Shown here: positions 5,383-50,025 of the stretch, in pieces
Layout: each line of letters opens with the position of its first letter
How positions within the stretch are numbered: the stretch's first letter is position 1
Virus record (IMG/VR): IMGVR_UViG_3300009285_002661
Location: 1-57,916 of that record
Length of the DNA stretch: 57,916 nt
Source: a virus
Reading direction: 5' to 3' (one strand)
Notes under the pieces: generated by a model
What the model was told of the DNA's origin: nothing
Databases searched by the model: none
What the model saw: the letters and a program-made list of their open reading frames with translations, nothing else
Made by a program: the position numbers and the translations under genes

Positions 5383-5399
5383 CATTTTGAGGTAACCCT

Positions 5400-6848
5400 G
5401 TGACCCTCGCCTCCACCACCGCGAAAACAAGCTATGCCGGGGATGACAGCACGGTTGCGTTCACCACCGGCTTTGCCTTTCAGAAGAACGCCGACGTGAC
5501 GGTGATCCTTCGTTCTTCGGCCGGGGTTGAGACAACCTGGGTCGAGGGCACGCAGTACACCTTGACCGGGGCTGGGGATGCGGTCGGCGGCACCGTCACC
5601 GTCGATACGTCGCCAACCGATTACACCCCGGCCACCGGGGAAACGCTGGTCATCAAGCGCATCCCGACGCTGACCCAGGATTCCTCCCTGCCGCTCGGCG
5701 GGCCGTTGCCGTCGGACGATGTGGAAGACGCGCTCGACCGCCTCGTCATGATAACGCAGTCCCTGGACGAGCGCCTGGACCGGGCCTTGACGTTTGCGTC
5801 GACGTCGACGGCTACCGCAACGACGTTTCCCGATCCCTCGGCGAGCAAAATACCGGCATGGAACGCGGCGGGGACGGCCCTGGTCAACACCGCGTTCGCC
5901 GACATCTCCGCTTTGATCGACGCCGTTTTCAGCGGGCTCGCGACCAACGATTTCATCCAGTACGACGGAACCAACTGGGTCAACAAGACGCCGGCCCAGG
6001 TTGCCACGGCTTTGGCGCTCGGCACGGGGGACTCGCCGCAGTTCACGGCGGTCAACATCGGTCACGCCACGGATACGACCTTGACCCGCGTGTCCGCCGG
6101 CGTTCTTGCCGTGGAGGGCGTCACGCTTGCCACGGTCGGGGCCAACAGCTTCACCGGCATCCAGTCCAATGCGGCGCAGGTCCGCTGGTCCAAAGGTGCC
6201 GACATCGCCTCCGCGTCTCCTTTGGTGCTCGGCACCGACGGCAACTACTTCGACGTGACCGGGACGACCGGCTTCTCGCAGATCACCTGCACCGCCGGCA
6301 CGCCCTTCATGCTGCAATTCGACGGCGCGCTCGTCATGACGGACGGCGCCAATCTTATTTTGCCGAACGACCGCGCCATCATGACGGCGGCCGGAGACCG
6401 AGGGATCTTCTTCGCCGAGGCCGCAAACACGCCGGCGCTGGTTGGCTACGTAAAAGCCAACGGCAACCCGCTGTGGATCGAGGAGACGCTGGTCATCGCG
6501 GTTTCCGACGAGACGACGGCAATTACCACAGGAACGGCCAAGGTGACGTTCCGGATGCCGTGGGCGCTCACGCTCTACACCGTGGCAAACGGAGGGGTGA
6601 AGGCGTCTCTGACGACAGCCTCGTCGTCCGGGCTCCCGGCCATCGACATCAACGAAGCCGGGGCATCGATTTTCTCGACCACGCTCACCATCGACGAGAG
6701 CGAGGAAACATCGACGACGGCGACGACGGCGGCCGTGCTGTCGGATACGGCGCTCGCCGACGATGCCGAGATCACTATTGATATCGACACAGCGGGAACC
6801 GGCGCCGCTGGGCTCAAGGTCACCTTGCGCGGATATCGCCCAGGATGA
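5400..6848 (+). CDS. Tail fibre protein 2
   Basis: 482 residues, GTG start preceded by a GAGG site. The N-terminal domain is paralogous to fibre 1 (YAGDDSTVAF, AGVETTWV, PTDYTPATGETL). A helical linker (LDRLVMITQSLDERLDR) and a long beta-rich shaft follow. The final ~120 residues (from about LWIEETLVIAVSDETTAI) form a separate capsid- or fibre-decoration-like beta domain. It probably acts in receptor binding, either alternatively to or together with fibre 1. Confidence 0.8.
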   Translation: MTLASTTAKTSYAGDDSTVAFTTGFAFQKNADVTVILRSSAGVETTWVEGTQYTLTGAGDAVGGTVTVDTSPTDYTPATGETLVIKRIPTLTQDSSLPLGGPLPSDDVEDALDRLVMITQSLDERLDRALTFASTSTATATTFPDPSASKIPAWNAAGTALVNTAFADISALIDAVFSGLATNDFIQYDGTNWVNKTPAQVATALALGTGDSPQFTAVNIGHATDTTLTRVSAGVLAVEGVTLATVGANSFTGIQSNAAQVRWSKGADIASASPLVLGTDGNYFDVTGTTGFSQITCTAGTPFMLQFDGALVMTDGANLILPNDRAIMTAAGDRGIFFAEAANTPALVGYVKANGNPLWIEETLVIAVSDETTAITTGTAKVTFRMPWALTLYTVANGGVKASLTTASSSGLPAIDINEAGASIFSTTLTIDESEETSTTATTAAVLSDTALADDAEITIDIDTAGTGAAGLKVTLRGYRPG

Positions 6849-13804: not shown

Positions 13805-14332
13805 GTGGAAGCGCCCCTCTGTAGACTCTGCACCCACCGCCACCACGCCTACGAACCTCATGTATGGGCGAGCAAGGACTTCAAGGTATTCGTGGATGAA
13901 GCCGCGCCCATCACCCCCGAACAGATTGAAACTCTCAAGGCTTTCAAGTCACCTCGCTCAAAGAGCACCAAATCCGGGCCTGTAGCTCAGTCGGGAGAGC
14001 GCCTGCCCTGCAAGCAGGAGGCCGCCGGTTCGATTCCGGCCGGGTCCACCATTACGCCCGTAGCTCAACGGATAGAGCACCAGCCTTCTAAGCTGGGGGT
14101 TGAAGGTTCGAATCCTTCCGGGCGTGCCACCAAAAACTCGTCGACCATGAAAAACATCGGAAATCCGCCAATTTTGGCACAAAACCCGCCAGAAACGGCC
14201 GATTCGTCGACCAGTGCCACCGCCAAATCACAGCGCGAGAAGAAATCCCGCTATCGCACCCCGGAGGCCGCCGAAGCCTACCGCGCTGCCGTGCGCAGGA
14301 GAATGGCGAAGCACCGCGCCCCGAAAGAGTAG
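13805..14332 (+). CDS. Hypothetical ORF containing two tRNA genes
   Basis: The frame (175 residues) has a plausible N-terminal domain with CRLCTHRHHAYEPHVW (Cys/His, perhaps metal-binding). It also has a basic C-terminus (REKKSRYRTPEAAEAYRAA). The middle 51 codons are the tRNA genes at 13976-14129 read as protein, which look non-natural. Either a gene was split by tRNA insertion or only the N-terminal part is real. Confidence 0.35.
   Translation: MEAPLCRLCTHRHHAYEPHVWASKDFKVFVDEAAPITPEQIETLKAFKSPRSKSTKSGPVAQSGERLPCKQEAAGSIPAGSTITPVAQRIEHQPSKLGVEGSNPSGRATKNSSTMKNIGNPPILAQNPPETADSSTSATAKSQREKKSRYRTPEAAEAYRAAVRRRMAKHRAPKE
13976..14051 (+). tRNA. tRNA-Ala (anticodon TGC)
   Basis: 76 nt with encoded CCA. 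The acceptor GGGCCTG pairs with CGGGTCC (G-T and T-G wobbles). D-arm AGCTC..GAGC, anticodon stem CCTGC/GCAGG with loop CCTGCAA, T-arm with GGTTCGATTCC. It supplies GCA codons. Confidence 0.95.
14054..14129 (+). tRNA. tRNA-Arg (anticodon TCT)
   Basis: 76 nt with encoded CCA, 2 bases after tRNA-Ala. The acceptor ACGCCCG/CGGGCGT pairs perfectly. Anticodon stem CCAGC/GCTGG, loop CTTCTAA, T-arm GGTTCGAATCC. It reads AGA, a rare codon in GC-rich hosts and so a usual phage-borne tRNA. Confidence 0.95.
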
Positions 14333-14949: not shown

Positions 14950-15167
14950 TGGCCGAGAAAATTCCTCCGAAAGATCGGGAGCGCCTTCTTTCGATGTCAC
15001 ATGGATGGCTGGCCTGCATGAAGGCGAAGGTCGCAAAAGAGTTGGAAGACGAGGCGATTGCAAGGTTGGATAAAATCACGCCGAGCGAATGGCGTGCCAT
15101 GGAAATTGTGCGAGCGGAACTGGACCGCATATGCGCCGAGCATCGGCGAGCAAGAGGACGACGATGA
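14949..15167 (+). CDS. Hypothetical protein, helical
   Basis: 72 residues. ATG 14949 overlaps the NusG-like stop; GTG 14946 is an alternative. Contains SHGWLACMKAKVAKELEDEA and a basic tail. Unknown function; it overlaps the next start. Confidence 0.5.
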   Translation: MAEKIPPKDRERLLSMSHGWLACMKAKVAKELEDEAIARLDKITPSEWRAMEIVRAELDRICAEHRRARGRR

Positions 15168-15493
15168 GAAAGCCTACAGCAAAACGAGTTATCAAGAAAG
15201 CATCGCGCGCAACGGCAGCAAAAGGGAAACCCATATCGCTGGACGAAGTTTTGCGCCGCCTAAAGAAATTGCCCCCCGAGACGATGGATGAGCTATCCGT
15301 CATCACGGCCGACATCCCGGACTACGATTTGCGCGACTACCTCAATGAAGCGCGCCGCCGTGCCATCGAGGGCGTTGAGAAGCCGCTGTTCTACCAGGGC
15401 CAAAATATTGCCACTTTGCGCGAATATTCGGATGGTCTCCTGGAATTTCTGATCAACCGCGCGGACGCCAAGATAAGAGCCAAGGAAGCGTAA
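15164..15493 (+). CDS. Small terminase C-terminal-like protein
   Basis: 109 residues, ATG 15164. The C-terminal half has GVEKPLFYQGQNIATLREYS, also found in the small terminase (16676) and in the protein at 45831. The N-terminal half is basic and differs. It may be a paralogous DNA-packaging accessory or a regulator built on the same domain. Confidence 0.5.
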   Translation: MRKPTAKRVIKKASRATAAKGKPISLDEVLRRLKKLPPETMDELSVITADIPDYDLRDYLNEARRRAIEGVEKPLFYQGQNIATLREYSDGLLEFLINRADAKIRAKEA

Positions 15494-16525: not shown

Positions 16526-16527
16526 TC

Positions 16528-16674
16528 ATGCCGCTCGCTAAAGGCAAATCCTCCGCCGTCGTGTCCAGGAACGTCAAGACACTCCTGGAGGAGGGGAAAC
16601 CGCGCGATCAAAGCATTGCCATCGCCTACTCCAAGGCGGGGATGCCGAAGAAAAAGAAGAAACCGGGGAAGTGA
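16528..16674 (+). CDS. Small basic phage protein
   Basis: 48 residues. The pattern KSSAVVSRNVKTLLEEGKP, then QSIAIAYSKAGMPKKKKK is frequent in phage genomes next to terminase genes. Function unknown. ATG 16528 follows the previous stop by 2 bases. Confidence 0.6.
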   Translation: MPLAKGKSSAVVSRNVKTLLEEGKPRDQSIAIAYSKAGMPKKKKKPGK

Positions 16675-16675
16675 C

Positions 16676-17203
16676 ATGGCCAAGCGCGGCGTCAATCTTT
16701 CGCAAGAACGGATCGATGCGTTCTTCGAGGTCTTCGTCGAAACGGGGAAGGTGACTGAGGGCGCTCGCGCTGCCGGGTTCTCAACTAGGTCAGCGTATAA
16801 CCTGAAGAACAAAAGCCCGGAGTTGAAGGAGCGTTGGGAAGAAGCCAACCAACAGGTTGACGACATGCTTGACGCAGAAATCTGGCGCCGCGGCCACGAC
16901 GGCATCGACAAGCCGATTTTCTATCAGGGCCGTGTCGTCGCCACGATCAAGGAATATTCCGACAAGATGCTTGAGCTGGCGGCCATCGGCCGGATGCCGC
17001 ACAAGTACGCCAGGCGCGCCGTCGAGATGACCGGCAAGGACGGCAAGGACTTGATCCCGCAAATGGACGATATCGAGGCTGCACGAAGGATGGCGTGGCT
17101 TTTGACTCAGGGCGCCGCCGCAAAGAAGAAACAGGACGCATCGCCACCCATCACCCTCGCGCCGATGCCGGATAAGGAAAATGAGTCAGGACGATCCGAA
17201 TAA
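16676..17203 (+). CDS. terS: Terminase small subunit
   Basis: 175 residues from ATG 16676. An N-terminal HTH (RIDAFFEVFVETGKVTEGAR, then AGFSTRSAYNLKNKSPELK) fits DNA recognition at the packaging site. The central EEANQQVDDMLDAEIWRRG and DKPIFYQGRVVATIKEYSD are typical of podoviral/siphoviral small terminases. It lies 21 kb from the large terminase, with the sugar cluster in between. It overlaps the next gene by 23 bases. Confidence 0.75.
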   Translation: MAKRGVNLSQERIDAFFEVFVETGKVTEGARAAGFSTRSAYNLKNKSPELKERWEEANQQVDDMLDAEIWRRGHDGIDKPIFYQGRVVATIKEYSDKMLELAAIGRMPHKYARRAVEMTGKDGKDLIPQMDDIEAARRMAWLLTQGAAAKKKQDASPPITLAPMPDKENESGRSE

Positions 17204-23925: not shown

Positions 23926-24116
23926 AAATGACGCCGTATCCTGGTTGGCAGTTTATTTTTGATCATACCGGCGCTGTGCATCACGTTCCAGAGTTCCAAA
24001 CTTTGAGGCTTATGTGCGAGGCGATAGCCGAAGCGCGCAAAACATGCGGCTGCGGCGGCATGAACTGCGTCGGCGCAAAGCATCTAAAGGAACTGTTGTC
24101 CAAGATTCCAGAATGA
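23922..24116 (+). CDS. Small Cys-containing hypothetical protein
   Basis: 64 residues, GTG start overlapping the previous stop. It ends with TCGCGGMNCVGAKHLKELLS, and its stop overlaps the radical SAM start (ATGA). No family recognised. Confidence 0.45.
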   Translation: MKMTPYPGWQFIFDHTGAVHHVPEFQTLRLMCEAIAEARKTCGCGGMNCVGAKHLKELLSKIPE

Positions 24117-25048
24117 ACCCCTTCGCCCCTCTCTATGCCCAGCAAAACACCGGCACCGCCGAGGACAAGCACGCGAACCTGCCGGACTTCCCCCGGCTCA
24201 TCGACATCGAGCCCGTTGGCCTGTGCAATTTCCGCTGTGTCTGCTGCCCGACTGGATTGCAGGCTGTCACCCGCCCCCAAGGCATGATGGACGAGCGGGT
24301 GTACTACGACATCGTTGCCCAATGCGCTCCTCACGATACGGCCATCCGCATGATCGGGTGGGGCGAGCCAACGCTGCACCCGAATATTGTTTCTTTCGTG
24401 CGCGCGGCGAACGATGCGGGCATCCTCACGCACATCAACACAAACGGCTCGAAAATCACTTGGGATTTGGCGGTCGATCTTGTCGATGCGGGACTCTCAA
24501 GCATCAAGTTCTCGTTCCAGGGCGTTGACCGGGAAACCTACAAGGAAACCCGCAAGGTCGATTTCTTCGACGGGATGCTTGAGGCCATCCAAACCATGCG
24601 GGAGGCGCGGGGCGAGCAGAGCACTCCTTTCATCGCCGCGTCCACGTCAACGACTTACGAAACCCCGGCGCAGATCGAATCCTTCCGCCACATGATGGAA
24701 CCGCTCGTGGATCACCTGTCCATCGGGAAAACTATTTTTGGCTTCATTGATTCCAGAGCCGTGCGGATCAACAAGGACGAGTTCGAGCGATTGAAGGCGC
24801 TGGCGACGACGGATTTGAAGCATCCCGACCCTTGCCCGGAAGTTTACGAGAAACTGTCAATCTCGTGGAATGGCGACATCAGGGTTTGTTGCAACGATCA
24901 TAACGCCACGACGAACCTTGGGAACGCGAGCGACGGAATCGCCAACGCATGGCATCACCCGACGATCAAGCAATACCGCGAGAAGCTGCTGGCCAAGAGA
25001 TACGTCGGCCCGCTTTGTTCTCAATGCTTCGAGTACCAGGAACACTGA
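24113..25048 (+). CDS. Radical SAM/SPASM-type protein
   Basis: 311 residues, ATG 24113. Radical SAM motif CNFRCVCC (C-x3-C-x2-C) at about residue 42, then the GWGEPTLHPN (GGE-like) motif and INTNGSKI. The C-terminal Cys set (CPEVYEKL, IRVCCNDHN, LCSQCFEYQEH) suggests auxiliary cluster ligands. Such proteins occur in O-antigen and nonulosonate clusters with undefined chemistry. It lies directly upstream, via three small genes, of the sugar amidotransferase, so it may modify the same sugar. Confidence 0.8.
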   Translation: MNPFAPLYAQQNTGTAEDKHANLPDFPRLIDIEPVGLCNFRCVCCPTGLQAVTRPQGMMDERVYYDIVAQCAPHDTAIRMIGWGEPTLHPNIVSFVRAANDAGILTHINTNGSKITWDLAVDLVDAGLSSIKFSFQGVDRETYKETRKVDFFDGMLEAIQTMREARGEQSTPFIAASTSTTYETPAQIESFRHMMEPLVDHLSIGKTIFGFIDSRAVRINKDEFERLKALATTDLKHPDPCPEVYEKLSISWNGDIRVCCNDHNATTNLGNASDGIANAWHHPTIKQYREKLLAKRYVGPLCSQCFEYQEH

Positions 25049-41514: not shown

Positions 41515-43188
41515 ATGCTCACCCGCGAGCATCATGATCTCATTGCGATCGGGGACAAGCTGTTCTCCGACCGTCAGGGGCTCGTGTCAACGTGGCAAGA
41601 GCTTGCGGATCATTTCTATCCCGAACGCGCAGACTTCACCCGCCCATTCGAGTCGGGTGGGGAATACGCATCGAATCTCGACACGTCGTATCCCATCACC
41701 GCACGCCGGGACTTGGCCGACTCGTTCGGGGCCATGCTCCGAAGACCGGGAACCAACTGGTTTCATATCGGGGTGAAGCGGGTCCAGGACATCGACGAGC
41801 CGGGCCGGAAATGGCTTGAGATGTCCGAGCGTGTCCTGAGACGCGCGCTGTACGATATCGACTCCAACTTCGTGCGCGCGACCAAGGAAGGCGACAACGA
41901 CTTCGCCACCTTCGGGCAATGCGTTCTTTCGTCCGAGTTGATTTTCCATCCGATTCGCGGAGCGATCCTTCTTCATCGGTGCTGGCACATCAAGGATGTG
42001 GTGTGGTGCATGGATGCCTTCGGGAAGATCGGGCATGTCCAGCGCAAATGGGAAGCGACGGCACGCGATCTTGTGGACACGTTCGGGGAGAAGCGAGTTC
42101 ACCCCTCGGTCGTGAAGTGCCTCGAAAGAGAGCCGTACAGGGTATTCGATGTCCGGCACATCCGCGTCTATTCGAAGGACTACGGCCGGAACAGCAGAAC
42201 CCCGTACACGTCGATTTTCATTGACGTAGAGAACCAGCATCTCATCGAGGAAGTCGGCCTGTGGACGCCGTACTACGTCATTCCCAGATGGAAAACCGTC
42301 TCGAATTCGCAGTACGCGCACTCTCCGGCCGCGATGTCCGCGCTCCCCGATGCCAGAATGCTCCAGCAAATGACCTACACCATCCTGACAGCGGGCGAAT
42401 ACGCAATCGAGCCCGCGATGGTCGGCTATCCGGAAGCGATCAAGGGGCCTGTCGAGGCGTTTCCCGGTGGGTTCACCGCCTTGGATGCGGCTTATGACGA
42501 GAAATTGGGAGAAGCCATCCGGCCTTTGATGAAGGGCGGGGAAAGAGCCATTCCGTTGGGTCTGAAGATGAACCAGGACACGCGGATGATGATCGCGGAT
42601 GCGTTCTATCTCACCAAGCTCGGCCTCCCCCAGGCTGGGCAGGGCGGCATGTCGCCCTACGAAGTGAAGATGCGGACCGATGAGTTCATTCGCGCAACCC
42701 TCCCGCTCTTCGAGCCGATGGAGTCCGAATACAACGGCGCGTACATGGAGCAGGATTTCGAGCTGCTTCTTCGTGGCGGCGCGATGGGCTCGCCGGATGT
42801 GATCCCGGACTCGTTGAAGGGCCAGGAGACGGAATTCCGCTTCGAATCTCCCCTGAGAGAATCCATCGAAAGCTTGAAGGGCCAGCAGTTCATTGCGGCG
42901 CTTCAACTTGCTTCCCAGGCCGCCCAGGCCGACCCGATGGCGCCCAAGCAGATCAATTGGGGACTCGGGCACAGGGATGCTCAGCACGGCATCGGCACGC
43001 CCGCTGCGTGGATGGTGGACGAGGAAGTCGTCGCTGCCCAGGCCCAGGCCATGATGAAAGAACAGCAGATGGCGGCGATGGCGCAGAAGGTCGCGACTGG
43101 AGCTGAGATCGCGCAGAAGGTCGGCGATGCGGGGCAGAGCGTGCGGCAAATGCTCACGCCTGATCAGCAGGCGGCAGAAGCCGCGTGA
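41515..43188 (+). CDS. Portal (head-tail connector) protein
   Basis: 557 residues. It matches the podoviral head-to-tail connector family: RQGLVSTWQELADHFYPERA near the N-terminus, LDTSYPITARRDLADSFGAM, and MLQQMTYTILTAGEYAIEPA. The C-terminus is Gln/Ala-rich and helical, as in T7 gp8. It forms the dodecameric DNA channel and motor dock. Confidence 0.9.
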   Translation: MLTREHHDLIAIGDKLFSDRQGLVSTWQELADHFYPERADFTRPFESGGEYASNLDTSYPITARRDLADSFGAMLRRPGTNWFHIGVKRVQDIDEPGRKWLEMSERVLRRALYDIDSNFVRATKEGDNDFATFGQCVLSSELIFHPIRGAILLHRCWHIKDVVWCMDAFGKIGHVQRKWEATARDLVDTFGEKRVHPSVVKCLEREPYRVFDVRHIRVYSKDYGRNSRTPYTSIFIDVENQHLIEEVGLWTPYYVIPRWKTVSNSQYAHSPAAMSALPDARMLQQMTYTILTAGEYAIEPAMVGYPEAIKGPVEAFPGGFTALDAAYDEKLGEAIRPLMKGGERAIPLGLKMNQDTRMMIADAFYLTKLGLPQAGQGGMSPYEVKMRTDEFIRATLPLFEPMESEYNGAYMEQDFELLLRGGAMGSPDVIPDSLKGQETEFRFESPLRESIESLKGQQFIAALQLASQAAQADPMAPKQINWGLGHRDAQHGIGTPAAWMVDEEVVAAQAQAMMKEQQMAAMAQKVATGAEIAQKVGDAGQSVRQMLTPDQQAAEAA

Positions 43189-45830: not shown

Positions 45831-46028
45831 ATGACCAAATATCAGCGTAGCAAAATTCGTAAGGAAGCATGGCGTCGTGCCGTTGAAGGTGTTGAACGGC
45901 CAATCTTCTATCAAGGCGAGTTGATCGGTGCCGTGAAGGAATACGACAACGGCCTGTTGCGGGAATTGCTTGCTATCGCCGAAGCCGAACGCCGGGACCG
46001 CCGTCAATACTCGACTGTTCAAAAGTAA
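45831..46028 (+). CDS. Small terminase C-terminal-like protein
   Basis: 65 residues, ATG 45831. GVERPIFYQGELIGAVKEYD aligns with the central part of the small terminase (16676) and with the protein at 15164. It lacks the HTH. Pentamer array A1 begins 2 bases after its stop. Confidence 0.55.
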   Translation: MTKYQRSKIRKEAWRRAVEGVERPIFYQGELIGAVKEYDNGLLRELLAIAEAERRDRRQYSTVQK

Positions 46029-46030
46029 TT

Positions 46031-46110
46031 CGTTGCGTTGCGATGAGTTGCGCCGCGTCGCGGAGCGATGAGCGGTGCGGCGATGCGGTACGTCACGATG
46101 CGTAGCGGCA
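46031..46110 (+). repeat. CGNNR pentamer array A1 (16 units)
   Basis: Units read CGTTG CGTTG CGATG AGTTG and so on; 13 of 16 begin CG and all 16 end in a purine. Three weaker pentamers (GTAAA TGACA TAACA) lead to array A2. Confidence 0.85.
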
Positions 46111-46129
46111 GTAAATGACATAACAAATT

Positions 46130-46214
46130 CGTTGCGATGCGAAGCGGCGCGACGCGCGGCGGAACGATACAAAACAGAGCGATGTGGCGCGCAACGCCAC
46201 GTAGAGGCACGCGG
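46130..46214 (+). repeat. CGNNR pentamer array A2 (17 units)
   Basis: Starts CGTTG CGATG CGAAG and ends 2 bases before the stop of the minus-strand regulator. 13 of 17 units begin CG and all end in a purine. Confidence 0.85.
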
Positions 46215-46216
46215 GA

Positions 46217-46402
46217 TTAATGGATATGCTTTCTCATCTCGCATGTCACGGCCTTGATAGCCATATCAATGCTCTTGGGAATGTTGTTGGTCCCCGCCTC
46301 CCATTTCTGGATGCTGCGGCGTGAGCAGCCGATATGATCGGCCGCCTGTTGTTGAGAGAGTTTGTAGCGGGTGCGCCAGAGCTTGAGCTGCCGTGGGGTC
46401 AT
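46217..46402 (-). CDS. XRE-family small DNA-binding regulator
   Basis: 61 residues from ATG 46402. HTH: TRYKLSQQQAADHIGCSRRS, then IQKWEAGTNNIPKSIDMAI, similar to host XRE/YiaG-like regulators. It is enclosed by arrays A2 and B and may regulate this block. Confidence 0.75.
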   Translation of the reverse strand: MTPRQLKLWRTRYKLSQQQAADHIGCSRRSIQKWEAGTNNIPKSIDMAIKAVTCEMRKHIH

Positions 46403-46415
46403 GGAGAGGCCAGTT

Positions 46416-46545
46416 CGTTGCGATGTGTTGCAGTGCGGTACGGTACGGTACTTAGCGAAGCGATGCGGAACGCGGCGACGCGAAACGAAACAAAACGCTG
46501 CGGAGCGCAGAGTTACGATGCGCCACGCTGCGGCACGGCGTGGAA
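46416..46545 (+). repeat. CGNNR pentamer array B (26 units)
   Basis: Starts CGTTG CGATG TGTTG 13 bases from the regulator start and ends 2 bases before the neighbouring gene's stop. 20 of 26 units begin CG and all 26 end in a purine. Confidence 0.9.
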
Positions 46546-46547
46546 AC

Positions 46548-47069
46548 CTAATACTCTGCGGCCTTCCCGTTCGTCCGCATCTTCTTGAACAATCCCATCG
46601 TCTGCTTGATGGGGATCGGGCCATCGACTGTATTGGCGGCCATGACAATCTGATTACGCAACGCCTTGCGGGTGGCCTGTTCGATGGCCCCCAGGACGGC
46701 GCGGCCGACATAGAACGCCTCGCGCTGTTCGGAGGTCAGGTTCTGGACGTTCACCGAACGCTGGCGCTTCTTCGCTATCCTGGTGATGCGCTTGGTCTTG
46801 GCGATTGGAATGTCGGTCGAAAGCGAGGCGATTTGAGTGTCGGTGGCCCGGCGGATACCCTTGCCGGTTTCGACCACGAACACGGTGCCTTCGCGTTCGA
46901 GACGGCGGCGGGCCGATTGCAGGATATAGCGGTCGGCACCAGAAACATCGCGCCCCGTGGCGGTTGCGATGGCGGCGTAGGTAATCAGGCCCTTGTCGCG
47001 ATGCTGGCGCAGAAACTCGACGCAGGTATCCACGTCGGGGGAAGCTGAGAAACGGGGCTTGGTGGTCAT
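46548..47069 (-). CDS. Winged-helix-like DNA-binding phage protein
   Basis: 173 residues, AAAGGA site. The N-terminal ~75 residues look like a winged helix (VEFLRQHRDKGLITYAAIAT, SARRRLEREGTVFVV). The rest is basic, with QREAFYVGRAVLGAIEQATR. A type often seen in phages next to recombination or regulatory genes. It lies between arrays B and C. Confidence 0.5.
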   Translation of the reverse strand: MTTKPRFSASPDVDTCVEFLRQHRDKGLITYAAIATATGRDVSGADRYILQSARRRLEREGTVFVVETGKGIRRATDTQIASLSTDIPIAKTKRITRIAKKRQRSVNVQNLTSEQREAFYVGRAVLGAIEQATRKALRNQIVMAANTVDGPIPIKQTMGLFKKMRTNGKAAEY

Positions 47070-47094
47070 TGGGTTGGTTTCCTTTGTGATAGAT

Positions 47095-47209
47095 CGTTGC
47101 GAAGCGATGCGCGGCGCTGCGTGGAGACGCGAAGCGATACGTTACCGAGCGTAGCGCTGCGGTACGGCGCGGTGCAAAGTGACGCGGTGCGGCGCGTTAC
47201 GTTACAAGG
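47095..47209 (+). repeat. CGNNR pentamer array C (23 units)
   Basis: Starts CGTTG CGAAG CGATG and ends 2 bases before the stop of the RAMP-like gene. 18 of 23 units begin CG and all end in a purine. Confidence 0.9.
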
Positions 47210-47211
47210 CA

Positions 47212-47793
47212 TCAATTCTCCTTGATGCTTACCACGTTGAACCGGCCATAGAAGCCGTTATTGCGTGGACGGAAGCGGCCAAGGCCGATGAACTGCCCGG
47301 CACCCTCCAGAACGTCCTGGAACACGGTGCGGGTCTTGTCCTTAGCCGATGTTTGCAGAACGGTTTCGTCGAGGATCACGAATTCAGCCTCGGTCTCCCA
47401 TTCTGGAATGATCGGGTAGTACTTCATGACGCGCTTCGGGCCACCCCGGCGACCGTCTGACGGCAGGAACAACGCCTCCATTTCGACTTCATCCCGGTTG
47501 ATGCCGAGCGATGCCGGTGTGGCGACCATGACGCCCGCCTCGAAATTCTTGGTGTAGGTCGCCTTGCCCTTGCCGGGCACGGAGATGCTCAGAAACTTGG
47601 CCGCTTCCGAGAGGCAGTTCTTGAGCGAGTTGGGCGGGATGAACACGACGCCGTTCTTGTCGGCGTGCAGATGGTTCCGCCACGTGCGGCGGTAGTTGTC
47701 GTCCTGGGATTCGCCCTGGTCCAGTTCGCGGATGTAGTAGCGCGACTGGGAATAGGGAGAGACGCTGTGGAGTTTAACAGTCAGGGTTTTCAT
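47212..47793 (-). CDS. RAMP/Cas7-like phage protein
   Basis: 193 residues, AAAGGA site 6 bases upstream. The start TLTVKLHSVSPYSQSRYYIR, then VVFIPPNSLKNCLSEAAKF (compare IPGSSLKG of RAMP proteins), and the end QFIGLGRFRPRNNGFYGRFN (Gly-rich loop) suggest a RAMP/ferredoxin-like RNA-binding fold. I recall related uncharacterised phage proteins. No cas genes or CRISPR are present. It lies between arrays C and D; the arrays are candidate ligands. Fold assignment is inference. Confidence 0.45.
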   Translation of the reverse strand: MKTLTVKLHSVSPYSQSRYYIRELDQGESQDDNYRRTWRNHLHADKNGVVFIPPNSLKNCLSEAAKFLSISVPGKGKATYTKNFEAGVMVATPASLGINRDEVEMEALFLPSDGRRGGPKRVMKYYPIIPEWETEAEFVILDETVLQTSAKDKTRTVFQDVLEGAGQFIGLGRFRPRNNGFYGRFNVVSIKEN

Positions 47794-47804
47794 AGGAGTC
47801 CTTT

Positions 47805-47914
47805 CGTTGCGGTGTGTTGCGGAACGTCACGGCGCGTTGCGGTGCGGCACGTCACGATGCGGTGCGAAGCGAAACGTCGCCCCGCGACGCACCGCGGGGC
47901 GTGGCGCGGTGGCG
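47805..47914 (+). repeat. CGNNR pentamer array D (22 units)
   Basis: Starts CGTTG CGGTG TGTTG next to the ribosome site of the RAMP-like gene. 18 of 22 units begin CG and all end in a purine. A 14-bp palindrome follows at once. Confidence 0.9.
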
Positions 47915-47928
47915 TATATGCGCATATA
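47915..47928. promoter_or_regulatory. 14-bp palindrome TATATGCGCATATA
   Basis: A perfect palindrome between array D and the radical SAM gene, in the only AT-rich spot of the intergenic region. A candidate operator or promoter element for the divergent genes. Confidence 0.45.
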
Positions 47929-47988
47929 TACGCTAGGCGAATAAGTGCGCTTCTGTCAATCGTTATTTTCAACCCGGTAAGGAATTAA

Positions 47989-48876
47989 ATGCGTTCAATC
48001 AGTGCAAACAGCGTAATTCAGGTTGATGTGTCGCATGGCGCTTGCCATCTCAAGTGCGCCCACTGCACACGAAGCATCGGCCACCACCGCCATCCGCAGT
48101 TCATGTCCCTCGATATGGTCCGTCAGGCCATCGATTCGCTGGAAGGCTTCGACGGCGAGATCGGCTGCATGGGCGGCGAACCGGCACTGCATCCGCGATT
48201 CCGCGAAGTGTTGGCGATTTGGCGGGAGATGGTCCCCGACAGACGAAAGCGTTCCCTGTGGACAAGCGGCTGGAAATGGGACGAGTACCGCGACGACATC
48301 TATCTGACGTTCGACAAAGACCTGATCCACTACAACGACCACACTCAAACGACGGGGCGGCATCAGCCGCTTTTGGTCGCAATTGATGAAGTCGTTGACG
48401 ACCCCGAGCTTCGCGAACTGTTCATCCAGAACTGCCCGTTCCAAAGCCATTGGTCGGCCGCGATCACGCCCTTGGGCTGTTATTTTTGCGAAATCGCGGC
48501 GGGCATGGGCGCGATCTTTGGCATCCCCGGATACCCGATTGAAAAGGGCTGGTGGCGCAAAACTCCGAGCGAATTCCAGGATCAGGTATCGCAGTTCTGC
48601 CATTCGTGTTCCGGCGCGATCCCGTTGCCGAGTTTCTCGGACGGGCGGGGTGGACGGGACGGCCCGACCATCGACATGGTTTCCCCCGGCAATCTCGAAA
48701 GGCTTCTCGCTGTGGGCTCGCCAAAGGCCAAGAGCGGCCACGTCAAGGTGTGGGACCGAAAATTGACGCGAGAAGAAATCGAGGAAGCGCGCAAGACATG
48801 GAAGCCACGACAATTCAGGCCATTCGAAGCGCATAGCCCAGAAGACGTAGCCAAGACCCTGGTAGAACCGGCGTGA
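47989..48876 (+). CDS. Radical SAM protein
   Basis: 295 residues, ATG with AAGGA. Radical SAM motif CHLKCAHC (about residues 19-26), GCMGGEPALHPRF (GGE motif) and SLWTSGWKWDEY. Extra Cys groups (LGCYFCEIAAGMG, FCHSCSG) could bind auxiliary iron-sulfur clusters. It is transcribed away from the array block. Substrate unknown; it differs from the SPASM protein at 24113. Confidence 0.8.
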   Translation: MRSISANSVIQVDVSHGACHLKCAHCTRSIGHHRHPQFMSLDMVRQAIDSLEGFDGEIGCMGGEPALHPRFREVLAIWREMVPDRRKRSLWTSGWKWDEYRDDIYLTFDKDLIHYNDHTQTTGRHQPLLVAIDEVVDDPELRELFIQNCPFQSHWSAAITPLGCYFCEIAAGMGAIFGIPGYPIEKGWWRKTPSEFQDQVSQFCHSCSGAIPLPSFSDGRGGRDGPTIDMVSPGNLERLLAVGSPKAKSGHVKVWDRKLTREEIEEARKTWKPRQFRPFEAHSPEDVAKTLVEPA

Positions 48877-49167: not shown

Positions 49168-50025
49168 ATGGCCGAGACTGCATTAGTTACCCGGTACAGG
49201 AACGAATATATCGCGGTGTTCGAGGACAAGCAGTCCCGCCTGCGCTATACGACTGTGACCGAGGCGGATGTCCAAGGCAATGCGGCGGTATTTATGACCG
49301 CCGGTTCCGGCTCCGCATCCGCAGTGACCCGTGGCGCGAACGGCTTGATCACGGCCCGCGCCGATTCGCTCACCCAGACCACGGCGACTCTCGCAGAGTG
49401 GCACGACCTGGACCGCAAGACCCGCTTCAACATCTACGCGGGCCAGGCGAACCAGCGCCGCATCATGCAGGAAACGTCCGTCGGCACGCTGAATCGCAAG
49501 ATCGACAGCGACATCATCGCCACGCTCGACACCTTCACGAACGACACGGGAACGTCTCTCCCGGCCGATCTGAAGATGATCGTTCATGCGCAGGCGGTGC
49601 TGGGCGACAACTTCGTCGATACGTCCGACGAGGACAATATGTTCGCCATCGTGTCCCCGAGCTTCATGGGCTATCTGTCGATGGTCAAGGAATACGGCTC
49701 GGCGGATTATGTCGATGTGAAGCCTTTGACGGCTGGCCCGCCCAAGAAGTTCAGGCGGTTCATGGGCGTCAACTGGATTCAGCACCCGCGTCTCACCGGC
49801 TCGGTGGGTGCAGGTGGGGCCGGCACCACGGAACAGTGCTTCATGTATCACCGTTTCGCCGTGGGCCACGCCTTCGACAAGGATCGGCTCAACATCTCGG
49901 TCGGCTACAACGACGAGCAGGACTACTACTACGCTCGTGCGTCGGCCTTCTTCGGCAGCGCCCTTCTTCAGAACGCCGGTGGCGTGATGATGAATCACGA
50001 TGCCTCCGCCTTCGCGGCCTCTTAA
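49168..50025 (+). CDS. Major capsid protein
   Basis: 285 residues, ATG with GAGG. It is placed after the scaffold and before the tail tubular genes. FEDKQSRLRYTTVTEADVQG, then MVKEYGSADYVDVKPLTAGP, FMYHRFAVGHAF and DEQDYYYARASAFFGSALLQ look like HK97-fold podoviral coat proteins. Preceded by its own promoter candidate and followed by a small virion gene and a strong terminator, as expected for the most expressed gene. Confidence 0.8.
   Translation: MAETALVTRYRNEYIAVFEDKQSRLRYTTVTEADVQGNAAVFMTAGSGSASAVTRGANGLITARADSLTQTTATLAEWHDLDRKTRFNIYAGQANQRRIMQETSVGTLNRKIDSDIIATLDTFTNDTGTSLPADLKMIVHAQAVLGDNFVDTSDEDNMFAIVSPSFMGYLSMVKEYGSADYVDVKPLTAGPPKKFRRFMGVNWIQHPRLTGSVGAGGAGTTEQCFMYHRFAVGHAFDKDRLNISVGYNDEQDYYYARASAFFGSALLQNAGGVMMNHDASAFAAS

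Follow-up and report, generated by a model that had tools for sequence, protein, structure and literature searches.

Five CGNNR arrays in a phage contig as probable guide RNAs of a VIPR locus on a C scaffold

Arrays and genes of the cassette

The window, by which we mean the whole 57,916-nt stretch of phage DNA analysed here, carries, between the genes for the portal (41515-43188) and the major capsid protein (49168-50025), a cassette of minus-strand genes whose intergenic gaps are CGNNR arrays (Table 1). Direct reading and unit counting yielded 104 five-base units in five blocks, whose starts and unit counts all agree with those given in the first-pass annotation. Its tallies of a purine at position 5 (104/104) and of CG in both positions 1-2 (82/104) proved exact on recount as well; taken singly, C is found in 92 and G in 94 units. 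Positions 3 and 4, which had been said to vary freely, are indeed variable but not quite free, with G at position 4 in only 11 of the 104 units. Each array opens with CGTTG immediately preceded by T or TT, again as described before. Lag-5 autocorrelation reaches 0.52-0.61 per array, compared with 0.1-0.4 for lags not divisible by 5, and the sequence logo that had been proposed as a check is strong. When both strands of the full window were scanned for runs of 12 units with a score of 29/36 or more, the five array places and no others came up on the plus strand; on the minus strand there were two places, both of them known arrays in reverse.

Table 1. Features of the cassette in window coordinates.
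Feature	Position	Strand	Remarks
vrRNA-like array 5	47805..47914	-	22 YNNCG units; vipr leader; ends CAACG just before ribosome-binding site
vipr, putative 193-aa RAMP-fold protein with G-loop GLGRFRPRNNGFYGRF	47212..47793	-	profile matches to 36pp and SUSP1 agp039; AlphaFold; Foldseek
vrRNA-like array 4	47095..47209	-	23 YNNCG units; between vipr and vap
vap, putative 173-aa protein	46548..47069	-	family adjoins vipr, same strand; matches SUSP1 agp038
vrRNA-like array 3	46416..46545	-	26 YNNCG units; between vap and HTH gene
61-aa helix-turn-helix (HTH) protein	46217..46402	-	Pfam HTH_3, E 6.5e-8
vrRNA-like array 2	46130..46214	-	17 YNNCG units
Short AT-rich 3' tail / spacer AATTTGTTATGTCATTTAC	46111..46129	-	between arrays 2 and 1
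vrRNA-like array 1	46031..46110	-	16 YNNCG units; ends CAACGCAACG
AT-rich near-palindrome TATATGCGCATATA	47915..47935		between array 5 and divergent radical-SAM gene; direct reading

Because the neighbouring genes run on the minus strand, the functional reading of the repeat is taken to be its reverse complement, YNNCG, which on the coding strand amounts to a constant CGY triplet alternating with a variable NN dinucleotide. By transcription the order is array 5, the 193-aa gene, array 4, the 173-aa gene, array 3, the 61-aa HTH gene, array 2, a 19-nt AT-rich spacer and array 1, and as far as array 5 the cassette has hardly any non-coding DNA outside the arrays. The near-palindrome TATATGCGCATATA is possibly the promoter or operator of the cassette; no sigma-70 promoter was matched in the cassette, the near-palindrome region included, and no Rfam family was matched there. 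Adjoining array 1 is a 65-aa protein (45831-46028) with a weak terminase-small-subunit match, and two longer paralogous ORFs lie at 15074-15490 and 16526-17200. The contig furthermore carries radical-SAM genes at 47989-48876 and 24014-25048, one of them divergent from the cassette, and two adjacent tRNA genes at 13976-14126.

Profile searches and structure prediction identify the putative product of the 193-aa gene as Vipr, a RAMP homologue. A PDB search with its family alignment profile returned 36pp, 'SUSP1 Vipr protein', as the sole match (E 7.2e-11), and an HMM built from the protein and its viral-contig homologues matched SUSP1 agp039 (E 1.1e-16), which is the protein of PDB 36pp (E 2e-130). 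The Vipr-family HMM also matches proteins in a Felixounavirus phage, LESphi2 and DSL-LC04, all of which adjoin YNNGG arrays, and the nearest relative in a cellular genome collection stems from a Rhodospirillales MAG. With a 40-row alignment, AlphaFold modelled the protein at pLDDT 94.4 and pTM 0.88, compared with pLDDT 33 from the single sequence alone, and the best Foldseek matches of the model in the PDB were type VII and type III CRISPR RAMP complexes (Cas7/Csm subunits, E from 1.9e-7). The 173-aa gene was taken as vap because its family adjoins vipr on the same strand and includes the SUSP1 vipr neighbour: the family is present in 116 of 138 vipr loci, in all 116 on the strand of vipr, and its profile matches SUSP1 agp038, the neighbour of SUSP1 vipr, with E 1.4e-18. 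The 61-aa HTH protein is possibly a regulator of the cassette; its gene is not kept in related loci, of which about 120 yielded 1 weak relative.

Relation to known systems and the C-scaffold class

The VIPR preprint describes a phage-encoded RAMP protein, Vipr, together with a vap gene and guide RNAs (vrRNA) in which YNNGG is repeated 9-16 times and the NN dinucleotides read DNA, skipping one base between pairs (PMC13142463). The repeats are given there as 'GGY/NN or a related consensus', and the system is presented as CRISPR-like silencing of rival viruses, with satellites and prophages as most of its natural targets (PMC13142463). SUSP1 VIPR, whose Vipr structure is 36pp, is assigned to type II, a type marked by a conserved structured 3' tail (pseudoknot) (PMC13142463). 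The form of the arrays, for which the first-pass annotation had known of no named family, was reported in 2026 for the vrRNA of VIPR, with YNNGG repeats (PMC13142463), and the free dinucleotide, which it had regarded as a spacing filler, is in the published system the guide itself (PMC13142463).

The window locus resembles SUSP1 VIPR in its homologous Vipr and neighbour gene, in its ~100-nt arrays occupying the gaps next to vipr, in a unit composed of a pyrimidine, NN and a fixed pair, and in being phage-encoded. It differs in that its repeats are CGY instead of GGY and its arrays contain 16-26 instead of 9-16 units, so that the strict GGY repeats in 9-16 copies typical of type II are not seen here, and in that its arrays are placed both between and outside the genes. 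A long structured 3' tail as in SUSP1 is not apparent in the window, which instead has a terminal CAACG and, between arrays 2 and 1 only, a short AT-rich tail; tandem guides in relatives are set apart in the same manner. CAACG is the terminal unit in 106 of 214 arrays, and ATTNNTTTTGGCATTT-like AT-rich tails follow it in L042, L019, L017, L089, L163 and L071. With GG-scaffold VIPR loci of viral contigs, for example L149, L151 and L173, the window shares the Vipr family (44-57% identity), mostly the Vap family, the strand logic and the tandem NN design, whereas in those loci scaffold base 4 is G and Vipr has V/F where the window protein has L110/Y126. Class 1 CRISPR-Cas RAMP complexes (types VII and III) are similar in their RAMP fold with a G-loop and in a guide bound by repeated subunits, but the window contains neither CRISPR repeats and spacers nor a cas operon, its guide would be noncontiguous, and its Vipr is shorter than 200 aa with one RRM-like core. 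The identical repeats, contiguous unique spacers and nearby cas genes of a CRISPR array are absent, and the earlier statement that the arrays are neither a microsatellite nor a CRISPR is borne out.

By its Vipr and Vap homology, its form and the code found in its relatives, the locus is thus classed from sequence as a member of VIPR, and as a variant in scaffold, guide length and, apparently, tail; it falls outside the SUSP1 (type II) clade, whose definition requires strict GGY repeats. The VIPR traits present comprise a small RAMP protein with an RRM core and G-loop, vipr and vap with long intergenic stretches, a phage location between portal and capsid genes, as VIPR is carried mainly by phages or proviruses, and a fixed triplet alternating with hypervariable NN as the related consensus CGY/NN; base skipping was found with guides of relatives, mostly on a C scaffold, and not with the five guides of the window. 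The CGY class may already figure among the 'related consensus' forms in fig. S17 of the VIPR preprint (PMC13142463).

An IMG/VR scan with eight CGNNR units gave at least 120 stretches. Among the matches listed, Vipr was found in 63 of 85 loci with diverse CGNNR arrays (the window included in the 85), compared with 4 of 36 loci with only low-diversity repeats, and the array strand equals the Vipr strand in 249 of 263 arrays; the co-occurrence check in viral contigs that had been suggested thus does not point to a pattern scattered at random in GC-rich DNA. About 5,000 units in the arrays of the matches listed show strong conservation at the positions of the pyrimidine, C and G, and a mixture of bases at both N positions. 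A second search by the Vipr protein alone, with the repeat unused, yielded 65 relatives, nearly all with arrays, mostly YNNGG and otherwise YNNCG. The closest Viprs (60-81% identity) have YNNCG arrays in all cases, and those 44-57% identical to the window's have mostly G-scaffold arrays. L141, L202 and L210 (80-81% Vipr identity) share the scaffold and the terminal CAACG with the window, and their NN are entirely different. The C scaffold is hence a real, recurring class within VIPR, and its NN dinucleotides are hypervariable between close relatives.

Several loci of this class deserve separate mention. Among the matches listed, 22 diverse C-scaffold loci have no Vipr in the examined stretch (L098, L109, L112, L127, L133 and others), and many of their arrays lie near an end of that stretch. 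L103, L107 and L115 hold about ten or more arrays per contig, far more guides than SUSP1, and the L107 arrays, which reach 40-57 units, may be overlapping or fused guides. In L063, nine short C-scaffold arrays (5392-5969) and a distant Vipr homologue lie on opposite strands, and these arrays are either served by another Vipr or an exception to the orientation rule.

On a tree of 95 Vipr rows the scaffold base needs 7 changes, and starred branches force 3. V110/F126 (window numbering) occurs in 34 G-scaffold proteins and 1 C-scaffold protein, L110/Y126, the genotype of the window protein, in 13 C-scaffold proteins, and A110/F126 in 33 C-scaffold proteins; on the window side of the tree every separate C group departs from V/F. 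The SUSP1-like proteins are too distant for comparison at positions 110/126. Since a single C origin on the window side was not rejected by the AU test (p-AU 0.13-0.19), the covariation with V110/F126 is offered only as a hypothesis, and convergent switching of the scaffold base, considered as an established result, was discarded, as these values are compatible with a single C origin.

Guide code and candidate targets

For the skip code, 454 guides (317 on C and 137 on G scaffold) were compared with 1.73 Mb of sequence, with loci fetched by guide patterns excluded and arrays masked. Matches with a local score of at least 18 numbered 2, 15, 0 and 0 at skips of 0, 1, 2 and 3, against 0-0.7 for shuffled guides, and those with a score of at least 20 numbered 0, 8, 0 and 0. 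Many of the 15 top 1-skip matches are one guide against many homologous vipr genes, so that the independent events are about four or five. In codon-space decoding, ten real guides exceed the best of 410 shuffled ones. The 1-nt-skip code thus holds in relatives of mostly C scaffold. An earlier cross-target test with a fixed 10-unit window and a smaller sequence set gave no excess, and the seeded search was used instead. The signal from NN composition relative to codon positions 1-2 was weak (z 3.9 vs 2.2 and 2.5 for the other frames), and we do not take it as proof.

Three guides decode to conserved Vipr peptides, which makes rival vipr genes likely targets of C-scaffold guides at the sequence level: L141 guide 3586, adjoining vipr, decodes to FRPRNNGYYGRF, the Vipr G-loop, L103 guide 1356 to the conserved peptide RFRSENGGLNG, and L171 guide 586 to the conserved motif AKFLSIQIPGKGKSTYTKH. 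In L141 the locus's own vipr mismatches the guide at all three Arg codons by a CGN/AGR swap, and in L103 at a Ser codon by a TCN/AGY swap. These two cases are suggestive of self-protection by codon swap, although the best-matching foreign vipr genes are also partly mismatched. Two L103 guides also match a related phage contig, L045. In addition, a G-scaffold guide of L193 (4126) decodes antisense to part of a serine-recombinase-like peptide, GIYARVSTSDQ, on the same contig (4794).

Exact 8- or 9-unit 1-skip IMG/VR scans with the window's five guides returned 4, 18, 36, 10 and 26 stretches, whose extended matches were at chance level except L273. This contig matches guide 2 at 27 of 34 NN positions, with the skipped base on the wobble position of a small phage protein (phrog_15261); with a chance expectation of roughly 0.03-0.2 given the matches screened, it is only a candidate target. 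A protein scan for relatives of the L273 protein found the same contig only. The decoded window peptides had no match in cultured phages. A search of 385 genomes, all from the class to which the host of the nearest relative belongs, gave no match to guide 2 at up to 3 mismatches, and none of the five guides rose above background against the window itself.

Interpretation of the locus

We conclude, with a probability of about 0.93, that the window contains a phage VIPR locus whose five arrays are guide RNAs on a C scaffold. This reading is based on the repeat anatomy, the homology of both Vipr and Vap to their SUSP1 counterparts, the RAMP fold, the linkage and orientation of arrays and vipr, the hypervariable NN, and the 1-nt-skip code in C-scaffold relatives. 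By analogy with the published system, we infer guide expression, a ribonucleoprotein, DNA binding and repression at the window locus. The minus-strand cassette would be transcribed and its five YNNCG tracts would give rise to guide RNAs (vrRNAs), either cut out or transcribed as such. Each guide would be covered by copies of Vipr that hold the constant CGY triplets and leave NN exposed; the NN would pair with double-stranded DNA while one target base, usually the codon wobble position, is skipped between successive pairs. The complex, presumably assisted by Vap, would keep genes of rival phages, satellites or other VIPR elements from being transcribed. The periodic two-part protein contact proposed in the first-pass annotation agrees with this strict triplet and free dinucleotide, whereas the half helical turn of DNA invoked as the reason for the spacing is not supported; and of the DNA- or RNA-binding reader it left open, RNA is the likely carrier.

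A tandem five-base periodicity would also be expected of a pentanucleotide microsatellite decaying after replication slippage, to which we give practically no credence: decay would not fully spare one position, yet a purine occupies position 5 in every unit beside near-random positions, and the same constraint holds in relatives across the units counted above, while the low-diversity repeats of other contigs lack the Vipr link. The position counts thus refute this candidate. It is also exceedingly unlikely that the arrays are operator DNA bound in register by the 61-aa HTH protein, as its gene, despite lying inside the cassette, is not conserved with the arrays, whereas Vipr and Vap are. Three of the five arrays stop immediately before the ribosome-binding site of a minus-strand gene, which would suit cis-acting leaders or spacers governing how downstream genes are translated or transcribed; the arrays would then not be guides, and their link to Vipr would be regulatory. 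However, arrays 1 and 2 lead to no gene, relatives have up to nine or more consecutive arrays in non-coding DNA, the NN vary between close relatives and guides decode to Vipr peptides, and we hold such a role to be very improbable.

A further alternative accepts a real VIPR locus but makes the host or the phage itself, and not rivals, the main object of the guides, through vipr autoregulation or phage gene timing. The peptides decoded from the L141 and L103 guides do occur in their own vipr as well, and some top matches lie in the guide's own contig (L112, L148, L038, L193). Against this, own vipr is mismatched exactly at six-fold-degenerate Arg or Ser codons, the two L103 guides match another phage contig, and the preprint places most natural targets in satellites and prophages (PMC13142463). 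We consider a mainly self- or host-directed action unlikely, and retain the reading of a phage VIPR locus directed at rivals.

Taking the Vipr residues and the decoded guides together, we tentatively speculate, at somewhat less than even odds, that the scaffold base is a switchable specificity: CGY- and GGY-reading Viprs would differ at few positions (L110/Y126 vs V110/F126), C and G systems would be orthogonal, and VIPR elements would target each other's vipr while sparing their own by Arg CGN/AGR and Ser TCN/AGY swaps. If so, six-fold-degenerate swaps would be the main synonymous changes visible to a wobble-skipping guide. VIPR is a newly reported RNA-guided system and a proposed ancestor of CRISPR RAMPs, and the C-scaffold class indicates that the scaffold can change inside one Vipr family. 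The class supplies natural G/C pairs that may help to find the scaffold-reading residues, and it could become a source of orthogonal programmable DNA binders; guides apparently aimed at vipr offer a direct and testable picture of VIPR elements fighting each other, with self-protection under a wobble-blind code.
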